Assembly (NCBI GenBank): GCA_903813345.2
Contig: CAIIXF020000005.1
Coordinates: forward strand, 27,903,375-27,967,374
From: Owenia fusiformis
Lineage: Eukaryota > Annelida > Polychaeta > Sabellida > Oweniidae
Length of the DNA stretch: 64,000 nucleotides
Reading direction: 5' to 3'
Position numbers and translations under genes: made by a program. This document shows positions 16,058-64,000 of the stretch, in pieces. The notes beneath the pieces were generated by a model, which saw nothing but the letters and a program-made list of their open reading frames with translations, did no database searches and was not told where the DNA came from. How positions within the stretch are numbered: the stretch's first letter is position 1; each line of letters starts with the position of its first letter.

Positions 16058-16154
16058 ACTAAATCTAAATACCCAGTGGCAGCGTCGCAAAAATATAACT
16101 TTTTACAAGAAATGCGGATACTGTTAGAACTGTTGATGTTAGATTAACTATAAT

Positions 16155-17543
16155 ATGGCACAGGATGATCTGCAGGCGGCAATAAATAAAACTACAGTGG
16201 ATATTTTAAGCGGCTACACCGGTGCTTACTCATTCGCCAACAGCTTAGACTCAAATCTTGATAACGGAAATATGGTACCAAATGTGTATGACATGAGTCT
16301 TGTTTCTAATAAAACAGATATGGCTATGGTCAATTCGTCGCTATCTGAATCGATGACAGAGAACATGACATGGGATACAATGCCAGTAGGTGAAGCTATT
16401 GTGTCTTCCTCTTTGCAAGGATTTTTCATATTTACAACAGTGTTCGGAAACATCCTCGTTGTGATGTCTGTATTCACGTACAAGCCTTTACGAAACGTCC
16501 AGAACTTTCTTATAGTCAGCCTCGCTTGCGCTGACATGTGTGTGGCGACCTTGGTTATGCCATTCAACGTGGTCTATAACATGTTAGGCTATTGGACATT
16601 CGGGATGGTATTCTGTCAGCTTTGGCTTACGATGGACGTGTTGTGCTGCACGGCATCTATTTTGAACTTATGCGCAATAGGCCTGGACCGTTACTGGGCT
16701 ATTCATGATCCAATAAATTATGCACAAAAACGGACACTAGGAAGGGTTATGTTTATGATCTTGATGGTGTGGGGACTAAGTGGTATGATCGCCATCCCCC
16801 CGCTTGTTGGCTGGAATAATTGGCCAGACGTGCAAAATGAACGAATGATGATCTGTGCCCTTACAGATGAAAAGGGATATGTTATCTACTCTGCATCTGG
16901 ATCGTTCTTCGTTCCTTTATTCATATTGTCTATTGTATATCTAAAAATATTTCTCGCTACACGCGAGCGGCTGCGAAAGCGAGCAATGGCTGGTGCTGCC
17001 ATGAAAATCACAGCGGCCAGTATAGTAAACAATCACAACACTGAATGCAGCTCCTCTGAAAGCCCAGAGGAGACAAAAGACACACACGTTATTGCGGATG
17101 ATAACAGCACCGCGTTATGTATAAATAAACGCAAATATGAACACCTTAAGGACAGTCCTAACAGGTGTCATAATGGGTCAACCCAAAAACTGAATCCTAA
17201 GCAATCGCCAAAAACCTTTCCCCAAAAGTCGAATTTACAAATACACAAATTCTTGGAAGAAAGGGCAAAAATATCTCTATCCAAAGAAAGACGTGCAGCT
17301 AGGACACTAGGTATTATCATGGGTGTATTCGTGCTCTGTTGGCTTCCCTTCTTCCTTATGTACGTAGTTTGTCCATTTTCAGGAGACCTTTGTATGAATT
17401 CAGACAAACGTTTTATTAACTTCATTGTATGGTTAGGGTATATTAATTCAACTCTTAATCCCATTATTTATACAATTTTTAACATTGACTTCAGAAAGGC
17501 TTTCAAGCGAATACTTTCTGGAAAATGTAATTTGCATAGATGA
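16155..17543 (+). CDS. Tyramine/octopamine-type biogenic amine GPCR
   Basis: A complete intronless 462-aa class A receptor. Residues 1-80 are an extracellular tail with N-glycosylation sequons at N11, N52, N60 and N70. Seven membrane segments follow: TM1 about 82-106 (N99), TM2 with D127, TM3 with C154 and the amine-binding D161, then D178-R179-Y180, TM4 W206, loop cysteine C234, TM5 with serines 246, 248 and 250 before P254, TM6 CWLPFF (395-400), TM7 W426 and NPIIY (435-439). The third inner loop is long (about 270-380) and basic at both ends; the C-tail is short with a possible palmitoyl cysteine C458. LDRYWAIHDPINYAQKRTLG, GYVIYSASGSFF and ARTLGIIMGVFVLCWLPFF match insect Oct-TyrR/tyramine type 1 receptors better than dopamine or serotonin receptors. 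Those couple mainly to Gi/o at the plasma membrane; ligand and coupling here are inferred. AATAAA signals lie at 17912 and 17963. Subtype call is moderately sure, amine receptor very sure. Confidence 0.93.
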   Translation: MAQDDLQAAINKTTVDILSGYTGAYSFANSLDSNLDNGNMVPNVYDMSLVSNKTDMAMVNSSLSESMTENMTWDTMPVGEAIVSSSLQGFFIFTTVFGNILVVMSVFTYKPLRNVQNFLIVSLACADMCVATLVMPFNVVYNMLGYWTFGMVFCQLWLTMDVLCCTASILNLCAIGLDRYWAIHDPINYAQKRTLGRVMFMILMVWGLSGMIAIPPLVGWNNWPDVQNERMMICALTDEKGYVIYSASGSFFVPLFILSIVYLKIFLATRERLRKRAMAGAAMKITAASIVNNHNTECSSSESPEETKDTHVIADDNSTALCINKRKYEHLKDSPNRCHNGSTQKLNPKQSPKTFPQKSNLQIHKFLEERAKISLSKERRAARTLGIIMGVFVLCWLPFFLMYVVCPFSGDLCMNSDKRFINFIVWLGYINSTLNPIIYTIFNIDFRKAFKRILSGKCNLHR

Positions 17544-53559: not shown

Positions 53560-54172
53560 CGCTGTTTTTTCCTATGACTAATTGTGTCCCTGTATTTGTA
53601 TAACTATTTGGACTTTTCTTATGATTGCGTCCCTGCATCTGTATTGCTATTTTGACTTTTCTTTAGACTGATTGTGTTCCTGTATCTGTGCTGCTATTTG
53701 GACTTTTCTTATGACTGATTGTGTTCCTCTATCTGTATTGCTATTTGTACTTTTCTCTCTGTATTGCTATTTTGACTTTTCTTATGACTGATTGTGTTCC
53801 TGTACCTGTGCTGCTATTTGGACTTTTCTCATGACTGATTGTGTTCCTCTATCTGTATTGCTATTTGTACTTTTCTCTCTGTATTGCTATTTTGACTTTT
53901 CTTATGACTGATTGTGTTCCTGTACCTGTGCTGCTATTTGGACTTTTCTTATGACTGATTTTGTACCTGTATTGCTATTTGGACTTTTCTCATGACTGAT
54001 TGTGTTCCTCTATCTGTATTGCTATTTGTACTTTTCTCTCTGTATTGCTATTTGGACTTTTCTTATGACTGATTGTGTTCCTGTATCTGTATTTCTATTT
54101 GGACTTTTCTTATGACTGATTGTGTTCCTGTATCTGTATTGCTATTTGGACTTTTCTTATGACTGATTGTGG
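53560..54172 (+). repeat. Minisatellite, 47-bp unit with 120-bp higher-order period
   Basis: Basic unit: TTCTTATGACTGATTGTGTT then CCTGTATCTGTATTGCTATT then TGGACTT. A higher-order unit of 120 bp, marked by TACTTTTCTCTCTGTATTGC, repeats exactly between 53761-53880 and 53881 onward, with a further variant near 54040. Non-coding. Confidence 0.92.
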
Positions 54173-54623: not shown

Positions 54624-57600
54624 ATGTTATTTTTAATTTTTATATTATCTGCAGGAAGTTTCGTAGAAGCGGATCCCAGAATAAATGTAAGTTATATTCA
54701 TAGGGTATAACTAGAGCTGGCATCGAATAGGATTTTAATGTCGACTAACTATAAAACATTCAAAAATATAACATTGCATAAAATGACACACAGTTATCCT
54801 TTTTAGTAAATTTTTATCGCATTTTTACAAATATATAAATTATTTTAGAAAATTGAATTCTCCTGGAATAAAGTCTTAACTTCGGAATATATTAATATTT
54901 TGATAACGTTTATCCTATATCAACATTATAACTTTAACAATTCACTGTTTTCCAACTTGTATATTTAAGTGCACGACGTGTAATTTCACTAGAACACCAT
55001 TGGATGATTACGTTTATGCAAATGATGATTCCTGGGATATAAATGTCCTCAGTTCGGAACCAGGGGCATTATCTAGAGTGGACATACTCAATTTCACTTC
55101 GCTGTCTTGGAAAACAGGTATGTGTAGACAGTTTTTAAGTTCTTATAAATATTTTGGACCAAACAATTTTTTACTTGTTTCGTTGATATTGCCTAAGTAT
55201 CATTTTTGAAGGACTAGATCTGGAACCAAATATCCATCTTGGTTATGCGTTATCTCAAAGACAACAGCCTTCACTACTGATTATGTCAACATGTGTGGTA
55301 AATTATCATAAAATGATTGCTTAAAGTAAAAAGCCTTGTTCTTTAACAAAACAAGCATGTTGATGTCGTTTGCAATTTTAGAGTGATACAAATAATGACA
55401 TTCTGTGATAGGCTTAAAGTAAAAAGCCTTGTTCTTTAAGTTCTATAAAATGTTTAAGCAATTCAAATGTATCAGACTGTAATATCATAAATATCCCAAT
55501 AACTCGACAGTGTTGCAATTATTGTTGAAAATGTGAATCATGATTATGAACGTCGTATGCATGTTATAAATGTGAGATGCTCAGCCGGGTTATTAGAAGA
55601 CATCAAAACATACTCCTGCTCTAAGACTTTGCTCCTACTTTCAATCCGACGCCCATGCGAATGATTCGTTTGTTCAAAACTGAATACAGAACAAATGTGT
55701 CTCGAGAGCCATTTCAAGGAATCGAGGTGCGGATGTTTGAAAAGTTGAGGTCTTAACTTACTTTCTTAAACATAGTGAAAAACGTGTTATAAATCTACCA
55801 TAACTTTTATTTTAGGTTGGTAGGTCTGCATGATAGGAACACAAAACTATGACAAAATACTAATAAATATATTAAGCTTCCATTACTACGTATTGTTCCA
55901 GACTTCAGTAACTTCACAAGCTGGTGGCACTACCTCGTTGTAGTTACGCCTAGTGAACATTCCTACCTGAATAAGGGACTTCTCTTTCTTGGTGGCGGAA
56001 GTAGAAATGAAGAGTAAGTCCACATTGTGATACAAATTGTACATAACGACAATTATTATAATATTCATATCATATATAGCATGCTGTTATTATCAACGTT
56101 AAAATGAGTGAAACAAGGACCACGTCTAATATTTGTGTCATTTATGTCACAAGGTTGTCGTTTAGTATGACCCATATAATTGCGGTATCAAGAGTCCTTA
56201 CTCCGCAACTCTTTCACAAAAGTAGAGATTCGGAATCGGGATCGAAATGTAACCCTGTGACTATTTAGTGCATGTGTCTTATATTGTTTAATTGTGTTGT
56301 AGGCTGGCAGATGTGACGAGTGACCCAGATTATGATCTTGTGGTAACATTCGCTGAGTTAACTGGAAGTACGTGTGGCTACTTGAAAGGACTCCCAAACC
56401 AGCCTGTGGAATTCTTGGTAGGAAAACTTCTTCTGAAAATGCGAGTTCAGGGAGTATATATACATATGTATATGTGGTGCGCATGGCCTTAACTGAAGAA
56501 AGACGATTAAATGGGAAATTTGTTGAAGTTGCGCGTTATTTAGTGTTTATCTAACATTGTCATTGTTTTCCTACTAGAACGAAGACCCTCGCGTAGCTCG
56601 TGGAGACGATGCGTCTATTGCTTACACGTGGCGACGTTACTTAGTCGAGGAAAATGCCGCTAATCCTGACACGCTTATGCAGTTCCCTATGGTCAAGGTA
56701 CAAATTAAAATGATGTATGTTTACTTTCATTGAACTATCATGGCTTGTTCTTCGTATAATGGCGAGTTAAACACTTGTGTTGTTCACTTCAGGCAGCTAT
56801 ACGGGGGTTGGATGCAATGACGTTCCATGCACAGAGGGTAGATCCTAGGACACTTTTGGATGAATTTGTTATCGTTGGCAGTGGAATTGTAAGTAAAGAC
56901 CCTCTTTCATATGAAAGATGATTTGAGTTAGCAATTTAGTATAAGGTTACCTAGATTTGGTTCATAATTATGGATACTAAAGAATTAAAGGTAATAAAAA
57001 TCTAAAAAATCGGATGCAATCTAATTTCAGCGTGGCTGGGTTGCATGGTTAGCGGCTGCTATGGACACAAGAATAACCGGTGTGGTTCCATTGACTGCTA
57101 CTATTCCCAATTTCCAACAAGTAAGAATATTTACCTCCATATATTTCAAAACAACAGTTATTAAACAGCATGAGCTAAATAGGTACATGTACATGTAGCA
57201 ATATAATAATGCTGCCGTGGGCGAAACCAGAAACTAAAGATATGGAGAGGCAAAAACTTGAATTTGAGGCAATAAAATACGATCATTAATTTCGGTTTCA
57301 TGATTTCAATTGAATGTTTAAATACGTCTGGTTTTGGTAGGGAATGAAACAACAGTATCGCTCTTTTGGCGGTTGGTCGTACGCTCTGAGGGATTATTTT
57401 GAGCTGGATATCACCAGACAACTAGATACCCCAAACATGGCAACCTTGGAGTCACTAATAGACCCAATGAGTAAGTCAAAATAACAGCTATTTTTCATTT
57501 CAAATTTCTCGTTTACAATCGGCATATGCTGTCGGCTACGGGTATGCTGTAATTTCGGGTAGTTTAGAAAACTTCTTAAAAATGCATCCAATTGACACCA

Positions 57601-59960
57601 GTCGTTTGATACAATTCTAAACATTATTTCAGTTCATTGAACGATCCTCGTATTTGTGATTTTAGGATATAATAGTAGATATGCGAACGTTTCAAAGATG
57701 GTAGTGGCTGCTGCCTCAGATGAGTTTTACGCTGTAGACGTGTCCTCTACATTCTATAACCAACTCCAAGGAGGAAAATTATTCTGGTGAGATAAAACAA
57801 TACATCGCTTCATCAAAGTATCGCGTTCTACTTAATTCGAATAAAATATCGAAATTGAAAACTAAATTCGTCATCCCGTTCGTCCTTCCATACGAATAGG
57901 ACGACTCTGCTTAAGAAAGCATTTTCATTATGGATGATGAATTCAAATTGCCACTTACTTCGTAAAATGTATTGTTTGATAAAATCATGGGCTTTCAACT
58001 TTTAACTTGTTTTTCAGATTTAAAAAAAATGTTTTGTCCTTTGGGATTTGCTTTTTCGGGGAGTTAATGTTTTTCGAATAAATATTATGTAAAACGATTA
58101 ATACTTTTGTAGGCTTCGAGGTTGAATTTATGTGGATTAAAAAAATTATATTTTTAGGATGGTTGATAACACAGATCACGCCTTAAACAACAGACAAGTT
58201 GAAACTGCAGCCCAGATAGAAGCATTTTACGACAGCGTACTACAAGTAAGAAACACTCTGAAACTATACTTATAGGAAAATAGTTAATAAAGAGTACTAT
58301 GTACATCGGGATTTACGCTGTCTCGTGATGTGCTAAAGAGAATTTACGATCAGGATGTGATAACCTAGTTTCAAATTCATTTTTTTGTTTTTTAGAATCA
58401 TCCTATAGCTGATTACAGATATGAATTTGTAGAAGTAAGTTGTTTACTATTCATATTTATTATTTAGTTATCAATATATACATGTAGTTTTCGTCTTTCA
58501 TTTTGATAATCAGGACGTATTTCTACATGAGATTGGTTAATATTGAATAAAGTATTTATGTTATAGAATGTAACAACTGGTTCTGGAGAAATACGATTAT
58601 TCACCGACACACAGCCAACTTTAATTCGAGGTTTTTATGCGGACACAGAAGCACCACATTACAGGTAAGAAGTTCCATCTTGATTAGAATTACATGGTTT
58701 AACTCAAATCGGTCTACCAGTATAAGTTAGAACAAGGATGATCATATTAAGAAATGACCTCGAAATAAGTAAATTAAAATAAATAAGCGATTATACCCCC
58801 TCCCTAAAACCAGTATACTATGATGTACCACCCCCGGTGATACCAGGATTGGTCTGATGAAATGGAAAATCACAAAGAATCGTGGGCCCTGAAGTCTAAT
58901 CCTCGAATGACCTGATATAATAGGCTTGCATAATCTGACTACTATAATCTAGGATTTATTTTATATTGATTTTGTTATTGTAGACGTGACTTCCGTTGGG
59001 CGTACTACGATGATGAAAGAGGGAACTACACAGAAAGGTCTATTTTCTTTGAATGGGTACAAGACAACAATGTGGATGTTGAAACTGATGACTCCGTAAG
59101 TTAATTAGAGAAATAGTTAGAGAAAGGTTTGATGCGTTATTTTGAATTTGTCGTGCAGAGAAACAAATTCATATTTTCAAAGTACTGCCATGTTGCCATT
59201 ACCCTATCCATATTACTCGAGATATCTGTGTGTAGTCGGAACAACTTTACCAGATCTTATGGGTTCAAGTGAAATCGTGACCATTTGGAATTGACCAATG
59301 ACACTTGTTAGAGTGAAAGGGCGTTGGTCAAGGTTTATTTATGCCAAATGTGATCTTAAACCCTTCCTGAATGATCGTGTTATTCACATTTGTTTGGCTT
59401 GCACGTTTGGCTCACTCTGTAATTCTACAATTGAAAAGTTATATACTAATGGAAATGGGAGAATAAACTCTAATGACGCTCATTCCGAGCGGTTAATTTT
59501 TAATATAGATTAAAAGCTTAGAATTATGTGCAATTTTGATTTCATATTCTTGTTGGTTTTGCCATTAGGGAAACCAGTATTACAGTTTGGAATACAATAT
59601 ACCTGCTAATGGTTGGAGAGCATTTTATATTGAGGTCAGTAGAACGATCATAGTAGTATTCTATAAAACAGTAAGATGTACATTCTTCTTCACTTTCGTG
59701 GAAGTCATCTAATATTTTTACCAGCAGTCAACTTCTATATCTAGTAGTCTATCAAGTGCAAAATAAAAACTCAAATATTTACAATTAATACGTATCACGC
59801 CAAAGCGAAATTCCGATTCACTAGCTTTTTATATTTTCAGGCGGCTTTCACGACACCGTCACTGAGCACAATCTACAAGTCAACCGAAGTTTATGTTATA
59901 CCTGAGACATATCCCTTCCCACAATGTTCGGGACAAAACTGCTATGGGCGAATTGTGTAA
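54624..59960 (+). CDS. Secreted PhoPQ-activated pathogenicity-related (AprA-like) protein, 15 exons
   Basis: Exons: 54624-54686, 54970-55117, 55902-56013, 56303-56417, 56578-56697, 56793-56888, 57031-57120, 57341-57470, 57666-57786, 58158-58245, 58396-58434, 58567-58664, 58984-59095, 59569-59634, 59841-59960. All introns are GT-AG, every phase closes, and the total is 1518 nt (505 aa), close to the usual family length. The start is chosen because MLFLIFILSAGSFVEA is a good signal peptide. Family landmarks: TPLDDYVYANDDSWD (about 28-42), an NQPVEF segment (141-146), the elbow region VGSGIRGWVAW (214-224), SDEFYAVD (309-316, candidate catalytic Asp) and DNTDHAL (335-341, candidate His). The usual elbow is GASKRGW, so the nucleophile Ser appears to be Gly217. 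Dictyostelium AprA, a secreted proliferation repressor, belongs to this family; function here is unknown. AATAAA at 60045. Confidence 0.92.
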
Positions 59961-60044: not shown

Positions 60045-60050
60045 AATAAA
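60045..60050 (+). terminator. Polyadenylation signal of the AprA-like gene
   Basis: AATAAA 85 bp after the stop codon and only 23 bp before the CutC stop codon on the other strand, so the two 3' UTRs probably overlap. Confidence 0.6.
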
Positions 60051-60072: not shown

Positions 60073-61075
60073 TCAATCATGTGTTACTCCTTTAGCGATA
60101 TACACTAATTTTCGAACTTTGTCGATGTCTGTTATTTTTCTTTGGAACTCTGGTGGGCTTATGCTAGCCCCCATGGCTACTGCAGTGTTTCTATATGACA
60201 TGTTTGAGGGGATTGTCGATCTGGCAGAGCAGTGGAATTCTTTGGCACCAGTTCCATCAAGAATTCGTTGCAGATTTCGCTCATTAATACCACCACCTGG
60301 CATCACTATGATTCTTTCTTTAGCCTAGAATTTAAGTTCACTAGTTGCATTTCCTACAGTATAATCACCATTTATTGGCAAAGATCAAAATATAAACGCT
60401 AATGACACAAGTTTCCATTATAAAAATATTGTTATACTTACAATATCTACCATGTTCTTTATGACAGGTACGCCCTCTAAAGCAGAATTTTCTAGTCCAC
60501 TAGTAAGTACTCTCTCACAACCAAGCTGTATTATAGTTTCTAAAGCAGTCTCGTATCGTTTACACATGTCGATTGCTGAAGAAGTGTTTCAATTCATTTC
60601 ACGAGAGTGTTTTTATTTTCAATAATTACTTTCAATAATTTTGTGGTATTGTATATTTTCAATTGTTTATCTTTCAAAATCATTCCTTAATCTCAATTAT
60701 TTCATATTTAAAACTGAACATTTTTCTATTCTAATGAACTTGGACTCCCCTGCATCTTTAATCCTTAATTCACCAATGACCACATATGTCAAATCTTTTC
60801 TCAGGTATCAAATTTGAAATCATAAGAGACAAGCAAAAGATGTTTATCAAAAATGGGTTCCAACATAAAGATTACATATATTTAAAGGCGCATGAGTGAC
60901 CAGTGTAGACGCATTCAACAATTATTTTCGATTATAAAGTGGCATCATATGCCAACGAAAATATATGAAATGAAAAATGATAGTTTAATGTGAAGGTTAC
61001 ACGAGGCCTTACAAAGTTCTTTAGAATAGATATTCTTACCTCTGTGAAATGTAACTGGACGGGGTCGACACAAGC
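60073..61075 (-). CDS. cutC: CutC copper homeostasis protein homologue, 3' exons only
   Basis: Three joined exons on the - strand: 61040-61075, 60442-60575 and 60073-60324 (stop TGA at 60073-60075). Phases agree and all introns are GT-AG. The joined protein runs CLCRPRPVTFHRAIDMCKRY, then RVLTSGLENSALEGVPVIKN, then IIVMPGGGINERNLQRIL and AKEFHCSAR. These are the classic CutC signatures (RPxxVTFHRAxDM, RVLTSGxxxxALEG, PGGGxN, HxSAR) of the second half of its TIM barrel. CutC proteins are cytosolic, about 250-270 aa, and linked to copper handling; the reaction is not established. Only about 140 aa are here. No N-terminal exon (MEVCVDS.. or IRPRGGDF-like) is evident between 61076 and the sulfotransferase start at 61860. 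Either the first exons lie beyond the window, with the sulfotransferase in an intron, or the copy is 5'-truncated. The remaining frame is intact, arguing against a long-dead copy. Confidence 0.82.
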
Positions 61076-61859: not shown

Positions 61860-64000
61860 ATGGCTTACATACAAGAAGACGTCAAGAGGCGACACCAACT
61901 ACATTCAGACTATCAGGGAGACTTCAACGAAGATGACGACTATGAAAAGGAAAAGAAGATGAGACGAACTTTCGTTTTTCCCTTTACAAGATTTAGTATT
62001 AAGGGAATAGTACTCTGGATCATAGGATTAGCAGGGATAAGCTTTCGTATGTATCCTAGTCCGTTGTCATTAATTTTACTTCCAAAATTACGATATCATA
62101 TATTTTATGATATGGCACATAGGATGCTACTCTTTAAATCAAGATACGCGTGATTATTAAAACGACAAATTCCATAGTCAAGTCATATTTCATTATTACA
62201 CTAGAAATAATATCTCAGTCTGATACTGGTACTACTTATTGTTCATTGGCTCAACTTTTTGAAGGGAGTTTCTAAAAACATTTATGACATCATTAATTAT
62301 AGTATGTATTTTTGTTTCAGTTGTCAAGCTGATTGTTTATTCCCAGGTATGAAATCTGCAACTTTGCTCTCTTTAAATAACTATGTGGTAAACAAAAACC
62401 TAACTTAACTCACATCATATGGCCTGCTACAATAACCATGTAGTTAATGAACGGGAGGGCTTTCAGAAATACATAGACGTTTTACATGAATACTCGTGCA
62501 AGTTGCCCGACAAGCTTATTTTTGACTAGTATAAATATACTCTTACAAAGGGGACCTTTTCGGGGGCCTTTTATTAGTTAATATTATTTGGTTTTTTAAA
62601 TGGTTCGCCTTTTTAAATGTTGTCTCTTGCGTTGACAATATTAAGTTCTGTATAGTAACTGTAAATAAGAGTAGTATAGGGAAACATTAGGCAATCAAGA
62701 ATACTTTAAACACTTGTAGAATGCAATACTTTTGTATGTTTTAGAAAGTAAACCACTGTAAAAGAGACAATATGCGAAGACTTGAAGACATTCATAGTGA
62801 AAGAATTGAACACCTCCAAAGCATGTGCGAAAAACATGGCTTGTATGATTCAAACAATAACGTCAACCGAGTTGAATTGGCTGAACTTCTCGTAAACAAT
62901 GAACACAAACTCATCATAAGACCGGTCCAACAAATAGGCAGCTCGTTCTGGAAAAGCATTTTGGTGATTCTCGACGGAATTTATACTGATAAAAGTCCAT
63001 TTGATATAAAGAACACAGCAACTGCCAGTAGTTACTCTTTTGTCAGATTAACTGACTATCCAACTGAGGAAGCCAACAGAATGCTGAGGGAATACACAAC
63101 AGTGATGTTCACAAGGGACCCACTATCAAGGATATACTCAGCATATCAGGATCTGTTTGCCTCCATCAACATGAGATATTGGAAAACGTTTGGTGCCAAC
63201 ATCATCAACCTTGTTAGAGAAGATGCTCATGAGAGATCAAAAAAGTATGCCTTTGGTTGTTATTATCGAGGATAGATAGCTTAGTGATAGCTTTTCTTTG
63301 TGGCATTTTTGAACCACTTGATGTGAGTGCATGCCTGTTTTTTCTCATATGACTAGCAAAGATACAGCCATATTTACCCCATGCAAGATATTGCCATCTT
63401 TCATCCTAAAAAGTCACACGTGCAAGATGAGATTTATTTATGACATCACAGGTTTAAAAACATCATCAACATGACAACTGATACACCGTTACTATGAGTA
63501 TCCATGCTCATTCTACAAAATAAGTTGTGACGTCATAACAATCAGACTTTGTTGCCACGCGTAACCAGGTGTTTTCTACAACATTGTTATGACGTCATAA
63601 CAATTGAAAGATGAAGTTCCATTAATTTGAAGCTATTTTTCACTCTGTTTTATCATAAAAAGGTGAAAATATGGCATAATACAGAGTCATATGAGAAAAA
63701 CTTTCTTATACTCGTACCTGTGCAATATCGTCCATTCTTGACTCGCTTTGATAATGTTTCTTTATCTCGTCTGCGACTCGATAAAGAAGAATTATCAAAG
63801 CTCATCAAGAATGGACGATCTTGCACAGGTACTCATATAAGAACCTCTATTTCTTTTCATGCTACATGAGTATACAACTGTTTGGTTTAGCTAGCCTCTA
63901 TAACATTATGAATTATCTAGTTATTCAAGAGACAAAGAGTTGTAATTTTAGGCTCTTCTTTCTTTTTCTCCAGGTGTGGTCATGATGTCACATTTGAAGA
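61860..64000 (+). CDS. Golgi carbohydrate sulfotransferase (CHST/HNK-1 type), 5' part
   Basis: Exons: 61860-62046, 62321-62346, 62745-63244 and 63974 to the window end; phases close and all introns are GT-AG. The first 247 residues show a charged 47-aa cytosolic tail, a signal anchor at about 46-69 (IKGIVLWIIGLAGISFLVKL), a stem, and the PAPS-binding features of the sulfotransferase-2 family: RPVQQIGSSFWK (130-141, 5'-phosphosulfate loop, usually RPKxGxTxWK) and TRDPLSRIYSAY (194-205, 3'-phosphate site). Exon 3 must splice at AAA AA|GTATGC (63245); joined to exon 4 it gives SKKCGHDVTFEE, the conserved CGxxVTFEEF block. Reading through the donor meets a stop 10 codons later. Family members transfer sulfate from PAPS to glycan chains in the Golgi lumen. 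The phosphosulfate loop is non-standard (VQQIGSSF), so the substrate and even activity are open. The C-terminal third lies outside. Confidence 0.88.
63520..63608. repeat. Hairpin with two TGACGTCA sites in a sulfotransferase intron
   Basis: GTTGTGACGTCATAACAAT (TGACGTCA at 63528-63535) and ATTGTTATGACGTCATAACA (63590-63597) pair with each other, enclosing about 50 bp. It resembles the CRE-bearing element at 43 kb. Confidence 0.6.
63715..63832. repeat. 118-bp near-perfect hairpin in a sulfotransferase intron
   Basis: The left arm 63715-63767 (GTACCTGTGCAATATCGTCC, ATTCTTGA, TTTGATAAT, TTCTTTATC) pairs with the right arm 63779-63832 (GATAAAGAA, ATTATCAAA, TCAAGAATGGACGATCTTGC, ACAGGTAC), leaving an 11-nt loop. 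It shares its end word with the hairpin at 24.45 kb. The 80-aa frame across it is a by-product. Confidence 0.85.

Follow-up and report, generated by a model that had tools for sequence, protein, structure and literature searches.

We identified in the annelid Owenia fusiformis a gene of the PF10142 family (PhoPQ_related; MEROPS S82), to which Dictyostelium AprA and the bacterial PqaA-like proteins belong, whose nucleophile elbow carries a glycine in place of the catalytic serine and an isoleucine in place of the invariant lysine next to it. Judged from its sequence, the product is probably a functional pseudo-hydrolase that acts by binding. The gene lies in a 64,000-nucleotide stretch of genomic DNA, referred to here as the window.

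The AprA-like gene and its paralogues

The window gene (54624-59960, plus strand) is complete: its 15 exons encode 505 amino acids and a stop codon, all introns have GT-AG boundaries and the frame is open throughout. It is located on a chromosome-scale contig of a 498 Mb genome. The protein matches PF10142 over the whole profile (positions 1-367 of 367, E = 2.6e-77) with 260.5 bits, the Pfam gathering cut-off for this family being 20.3 bits. Its N terminus is hydrophobic (MLFLIFILSAGSFVEA, judged by eye) and it has seven NxS/T sites; the protein is apparently secreted. With the rest of S82 it shares the full-length profile match, the Asp and His, the surroundings of the elbow and the RGW motif, but it is the product of a multi-exon animal gene and has none of the elbow Ser, Lys and Glu found in every other member examined.

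About 13 genes of this family are present in the genome, mostly on contig C5 and also on C7 and C12 (loci L009-L020), and many ancestral introns are common to these paralogues. We modelled the 12 loci outside the window with a purpose-written spliced aligner. The models are rough at their ends; L012 probably joins two places and L020 is without some pieces, yet both were counted, as their elbow exons can be read clearly.

Table 1 Features of the window gene (positions in the window)
Feature	Position	Strand	Remark
Exons 1-5	54624-54686, 54970-55117, 55902-56013, 56303-56417, 56578-56697	+	
Exons 6-10	56793-56888, 57031-57120, 57341-57470, 57666-57786, 58158-58245	+	
Exons 11-15	58396-58434, 58567-58664, 58984-59095, 59569-59634, 59841-59960	+	
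Exon 1, signal peptide-like start MLFLIFILSAGSFVEADPRIN	54624-54686	+	sequence, judged by eye
Exon 5, family-invariant ED motif altered by E156D (reads GDD)	56578-56697	+	
Exon 6, strand end and nucleophile elbow, ...FVIVGSGI; donor gtaagt	56793-56888	+	96 nt, as in most paralogous exons 6
Codon AGT, Ser216, variable x position of the GxS elbow	56880-56882	+	paralogues have A/G/E, bacteria mostly G/A
Codon GGA, Gly217 replacing the catalytic Ser	56883-56885	+	Ser in 128/128 relatives with a residue there
Codon ATT, Ile218 replacing the invariant Lys, directly 5' of intron 6	56886-56888	+	Lys in 128/128
Phase-0 intron 6, separating elbow and helix, position ancestral	56889-57030	+	common to 10/12 paralogues
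Exon 7, RGWVAW..., helix start after the elbow	57031-57120	+	R219, G220 and W221 kept
Exon 9, Asp310 (SDEF) and Asp316	57666-57786	+	Asp310 likely catalytic acid
Exon 10, His339 (DNTDHAL)	58158-58245	+	likely catalytic base
AATAAA polyadenylation-like signal	60045-60050	+	~85 nt 3' of the stop codon

Serine and lysine at the nucleophile elbow

The joined exons 6 and 7 run ...LLDEFVIVGSGI/RGWVAWLAAAMDTRI..., reading VGSGI/RGWVAW, where the slash marks the exon junction. A sequence-only reading of this DNA had placed Gly217 in the serine column, with Ser216 one position earlier and the GSGI/RGW junction falling at the elbow; the exon boundaries, which have GT-AG sites, and the numbering proved correct, and the column assignment is borne out by the paralogues and by the prokaryotic alignment. 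All 12 other PF10142 genes of the genome have SKRGW at the elbow. For the prokaryotic members we used two sets: 83 distinct sequences from a scan that was partly motif-based, and 35 distinct sequences from profile searches that do not need the motif, 33 of which cover the elbow. Aligned with these 12 and 116 relatives, the column of Gly217 holds serine without exception (12/12 paralogues, 33/33 profile-found and 83/83 pattern-found members), and the column of Ile218 holds lysine in the same sequences. Since both residues are invariant across all these relatives, Gly217 and Ile218 are not chance variation. At the DNA level, the paralogues have TCN AAR and the window gene GGA ATT, a difference in four of six bases. 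Upstream of the elbow, the family-invariant Glu156 of the ED motif is replaced by Asp as well; the sequence-only reading had named neither this change nor that of the lysine.

Candidate catalytic partners and predicted fold

The sequence-only reading had also stated that the candidate Asp and His are kept, naming Asp316 and His339. This held for His339, whereas for the acid Asp310 of the SDEF motif is favoured: all aligned relatives that have a residue at this position carry Asp, and Asp316 is only near-invariant (3 of the 34 bacteria found by profile have E or N instead). Because Asp310 is invariant and follows a strand in the predicted fold, it is the likely catalytic acid and likely a better candidate than Asp316. 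Both Asp310 and His339 are retained in the window protein.

The fold was predicted with AlphaFold2 for a bacterial PF10142 member standing in for the window protein (pLDDT 91.9, pTM 0.92), and the model is an alpha/beta hydrolase. In it, the invariant serine (S180) is placed on the elbow between strand 173-179 and helix 181-192, while the predicted partners D272, equivalent to Asp310, and H301, equivalent to His339, come just after strand 264-269 and after 291-296, respectively. A structural check of this kind had been suggested together with the original observation, and its outcome in the bacterial model agrees with a serine nucleophile at this column. The order of Ser, Asp and His in the model is the alpha/beta-hydrolase order described previously (PMC11878206). 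The solved folds nearest to the model are the CE7 acetyl xylan esterases/cephalosporin C deacetylases (Z 23.6, rmsd 3.2 over 271 residues), followed by S9 peptidases; the CE7 enzymes, however, have only about 16% identity to the bacterial model and are active esterases with Ser. A sequence search for a close solved relative gave no significant match for either the window protein or the bacterial profile. In weak matches of the bacterial profile to chlorogenic acid and cinnamoyl esterases, D272 and H301 are aligned with an Asp and a His of these enzymes.

Evolutionary history and constraint

In a tree of 37 sequences, the window gene groups with L017 as its sister (100/98) among serine-bearing genes, within an animal clade (100/100). 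Its position as sister to L017 within the serine-bearing paralogues shows that the loss of the serine is derived. L017 (C5, near 15.43 Mb) resembles the window gene in sequence (40% identity), in 12 of 14 intron positions and in the C-terminal tail, and intron 1 has the same place and phase in both; it differs in its intact GGSKRGW elbow and in its end branch of 0.56, compared with 1.43 for the window gene. The latter branch is the longest in the tree except for one near-equal bacterial row, and relative-rate tests revealed an excess in the window gene with five of six outgroups (chi2 5.0-21.3), the test with L015 not being significant (chi2 1.2). Among 40 columns defined as invariant on bacteria alone, 12 are changed in the window gene and 28 kept, versus 2-7 changed in the other paralogues.

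An accelerated branch is also compatible with a gene that is losing its function. The long end branch and the number of changed columns would thus fit a gene on its way out, whose catalysis is lost, whose constraint is relaxing and whose frame is intact just because the loss is recent; we give this reading a small but appreciable chance. However, the 15 exons contain neither premature stops nor frameshifts, all splice sites are intact and the polyadenylation-like signal is present. Over its full length, the branch also far exceeds what neutral drift could cover without introducing stops. When such drift of this coding sequence was simulated to 80, 60 or 50% amino acid identity, none of 600 runs stayed stop-free, and already at 80% identity the mean was 5.8 stops. 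Together with the 28 retained columns, this indicates that constraint was altered and not abolished over the whole branch. Moreover, each of the two elbow codons is at least two base changes away from every paralogue, so one recent mutation does not account for the loss.

Position of the serine and splicing

The serine one residue before Gly217, together with the retained Asp310 and His339, raises the question of whether the nucleophile has moved, as the sequence-only reading had allowed. The protein would then still be a hydrolase, with Ser216 working in a shifted elbow or with another residue as replacement. We consider this quite unlikely. When the window protein is aligned with the bacterial profile (hhalign, E = 2.4e-52), no gap occurs from F211 to W224, and the anchors F211 and R219-G220-W221 are fixed. 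This puts Ser216 at the variable x position, where two bacterial members reading GSSKRGW have a serine in addition to the real nucleophile; given serines at both positions in these bacteria, Ser216 is an ordinary variant and the serine has not simply moved. Lysine 218 and Glu156 are gone as well. Nucleophile elbows follow the pattern Sm-X-Nu-X-Sm, with a small residue usual at the last position, and a shifted V-G-S-G-I elbow would have Ile there.

The junction falls exactly at the elbow, and a misread splice had therefore been proposed as another source of the missing serine, the real transcript using a different junction or an alternative exon 6. This is practically excluded. The intron separates codons 218 and 219 in phase 0. 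In 10 of the 12 paralogues, an intron with matching column and phase follows an exon ending in Ser-Lys; the other two lack an intron there. The 11 in-frame, stop-free GT/GC-AG products listed across exons 6 and 7 and their intron include none with Ser before x-RGW, and no further copy of exon 6 was apparent within introns 5-7. A genome-wide search for an intronless copy with a GxGIRGW-like elbow found the pattern only at the level of the control. An assembly or base-calling error at the elbow is very unlikely, as it would have had to alter four of six bases of the paralogous TCN AAR in two adjacent codons with the frame kept, in a gene whose remainder is equally divergent.

Possible function of the window protein

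The window protein is a homologue of an enzyme family without an essential residue, as a pseudoenzyme is defined, and its retention is judged by the intact frame and the kept constraint. Among the features of active S82 members, the elbow Ser, the following Lys and the Glu of the ED motif are absent, and the Asp and His are present. No acyl-enzyme can form on glycine, which makes classical serine hydrolysis very unlikely. With the serine and its neighbour replaced while the gene is intact, the protein probably acts as a "dead enzyme", by binding instead of cleaving, and a non-catalytic member of this kind would be the simplest account of the data. The idea of a secreted pseudo-enzyme had been raised in the sequence-only reading and survived the splice, moved-serine and alignment tests; the binding or signalling role itself we infer.

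According to this proposal, the window gene would derive from a duplicate with a complete active site, from which the nucleophile serine, the lysine and Glu156 were lost, while the alpha/beta-hydrolase fold, Asp310, His339 and the start of the RGW helix were retained. Being unable to form an acyl-enzyme, the protein would have no serine-hydrolase catalysis left. The gene may have been kept since the secreted protein binds a receptor, a peptide or an active paralogue through the old pocket or surface, and such binding could result in signalling, sequestering or inhibition. A narrower version, namely a conserved secreted non-catalytic ligand or decoy of the AprA family, perhaps pairing with or antagonising active paralogues, is put forward only tentatively.

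A parallel is provided by the neuroligins, which likewise have an extracellular animal alpha/beta-hydrolase fold without a catalytic serine and act by binding. Their elbow reads FGSGAGA, with the same G-S-G pattern as in the window protein. Cholinesterases have a serine at the elbow position where neuroligins read GSGAG; a literature search by exact wording for the neuroligin glycine gave no match. Neuroligins differ in belonging to the carboxylesterase type B family and in their established role in cell adhesion, whereas the binding role of the window protein is proposed. Neuroligins and several insect CCEs (carboxylesterases without the Ser) have been described as catalytically inactive (PMC3017765). 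Animal alpha/beta-hydrolase pseudoenzymes are thus already known, and we found no literature report of a serine-less S82 member, as which the window protein appears.

S82 members have been described as barely characterised (PMC11878206). AprA acts as a secreted chemorepellent and represses proliferation, and a DPPIV-like activity has been reported for it (PMC8326840); the G protein-coupled receptor GrlH is needed for its full binding and response (PMC5821085). With both a DPPIV-like activity and receptor-aided cell binding reported, the family may act by hydrolysis or by binding alone, and a member without the nucleophile together with its intact sister L017 is a ready-made natural comparison. 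AprA-like genes have been reported in mollusc haemocyte responses (PMC7773633, PMC8902148), and a dead S82 member could mark a non-enzymatic role in immunity or growth control in invertebrates. If the ligand or decoy reading were true, signalling in the AprA family would be separable from hydrolysis, and animals would have a further family of alpha/beta-hydrolase pseudoenzymes beside the neuroligin group.

Additional observations

The paralogue L020 (C5:15837500-15846500) has kept the serine, but its ED motif is lost, DEF is changed to DAN and a stretch is missing after exon 7; from these changes, it may be a pseudogene or a further member without activity. Within the window, a minisatellite of 47- and 73-base units (120-base higher order) occupies 53567-54171, about 450 bases upstream of the AprA-like gene, and a CutC-like exon (60103-60324, minus strand; PF03932, 23.7 bits) belongs to its convergent neighbour. 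The window further contains an intronless frame of 466 codons for a rhodopsin-family GPCR (16143-17543, plus strand; PF00001, E = 1.5e-68) and a sulfotransferase-like frame (62745-63275, plus strand; PF03567, E = 7.7e-15).
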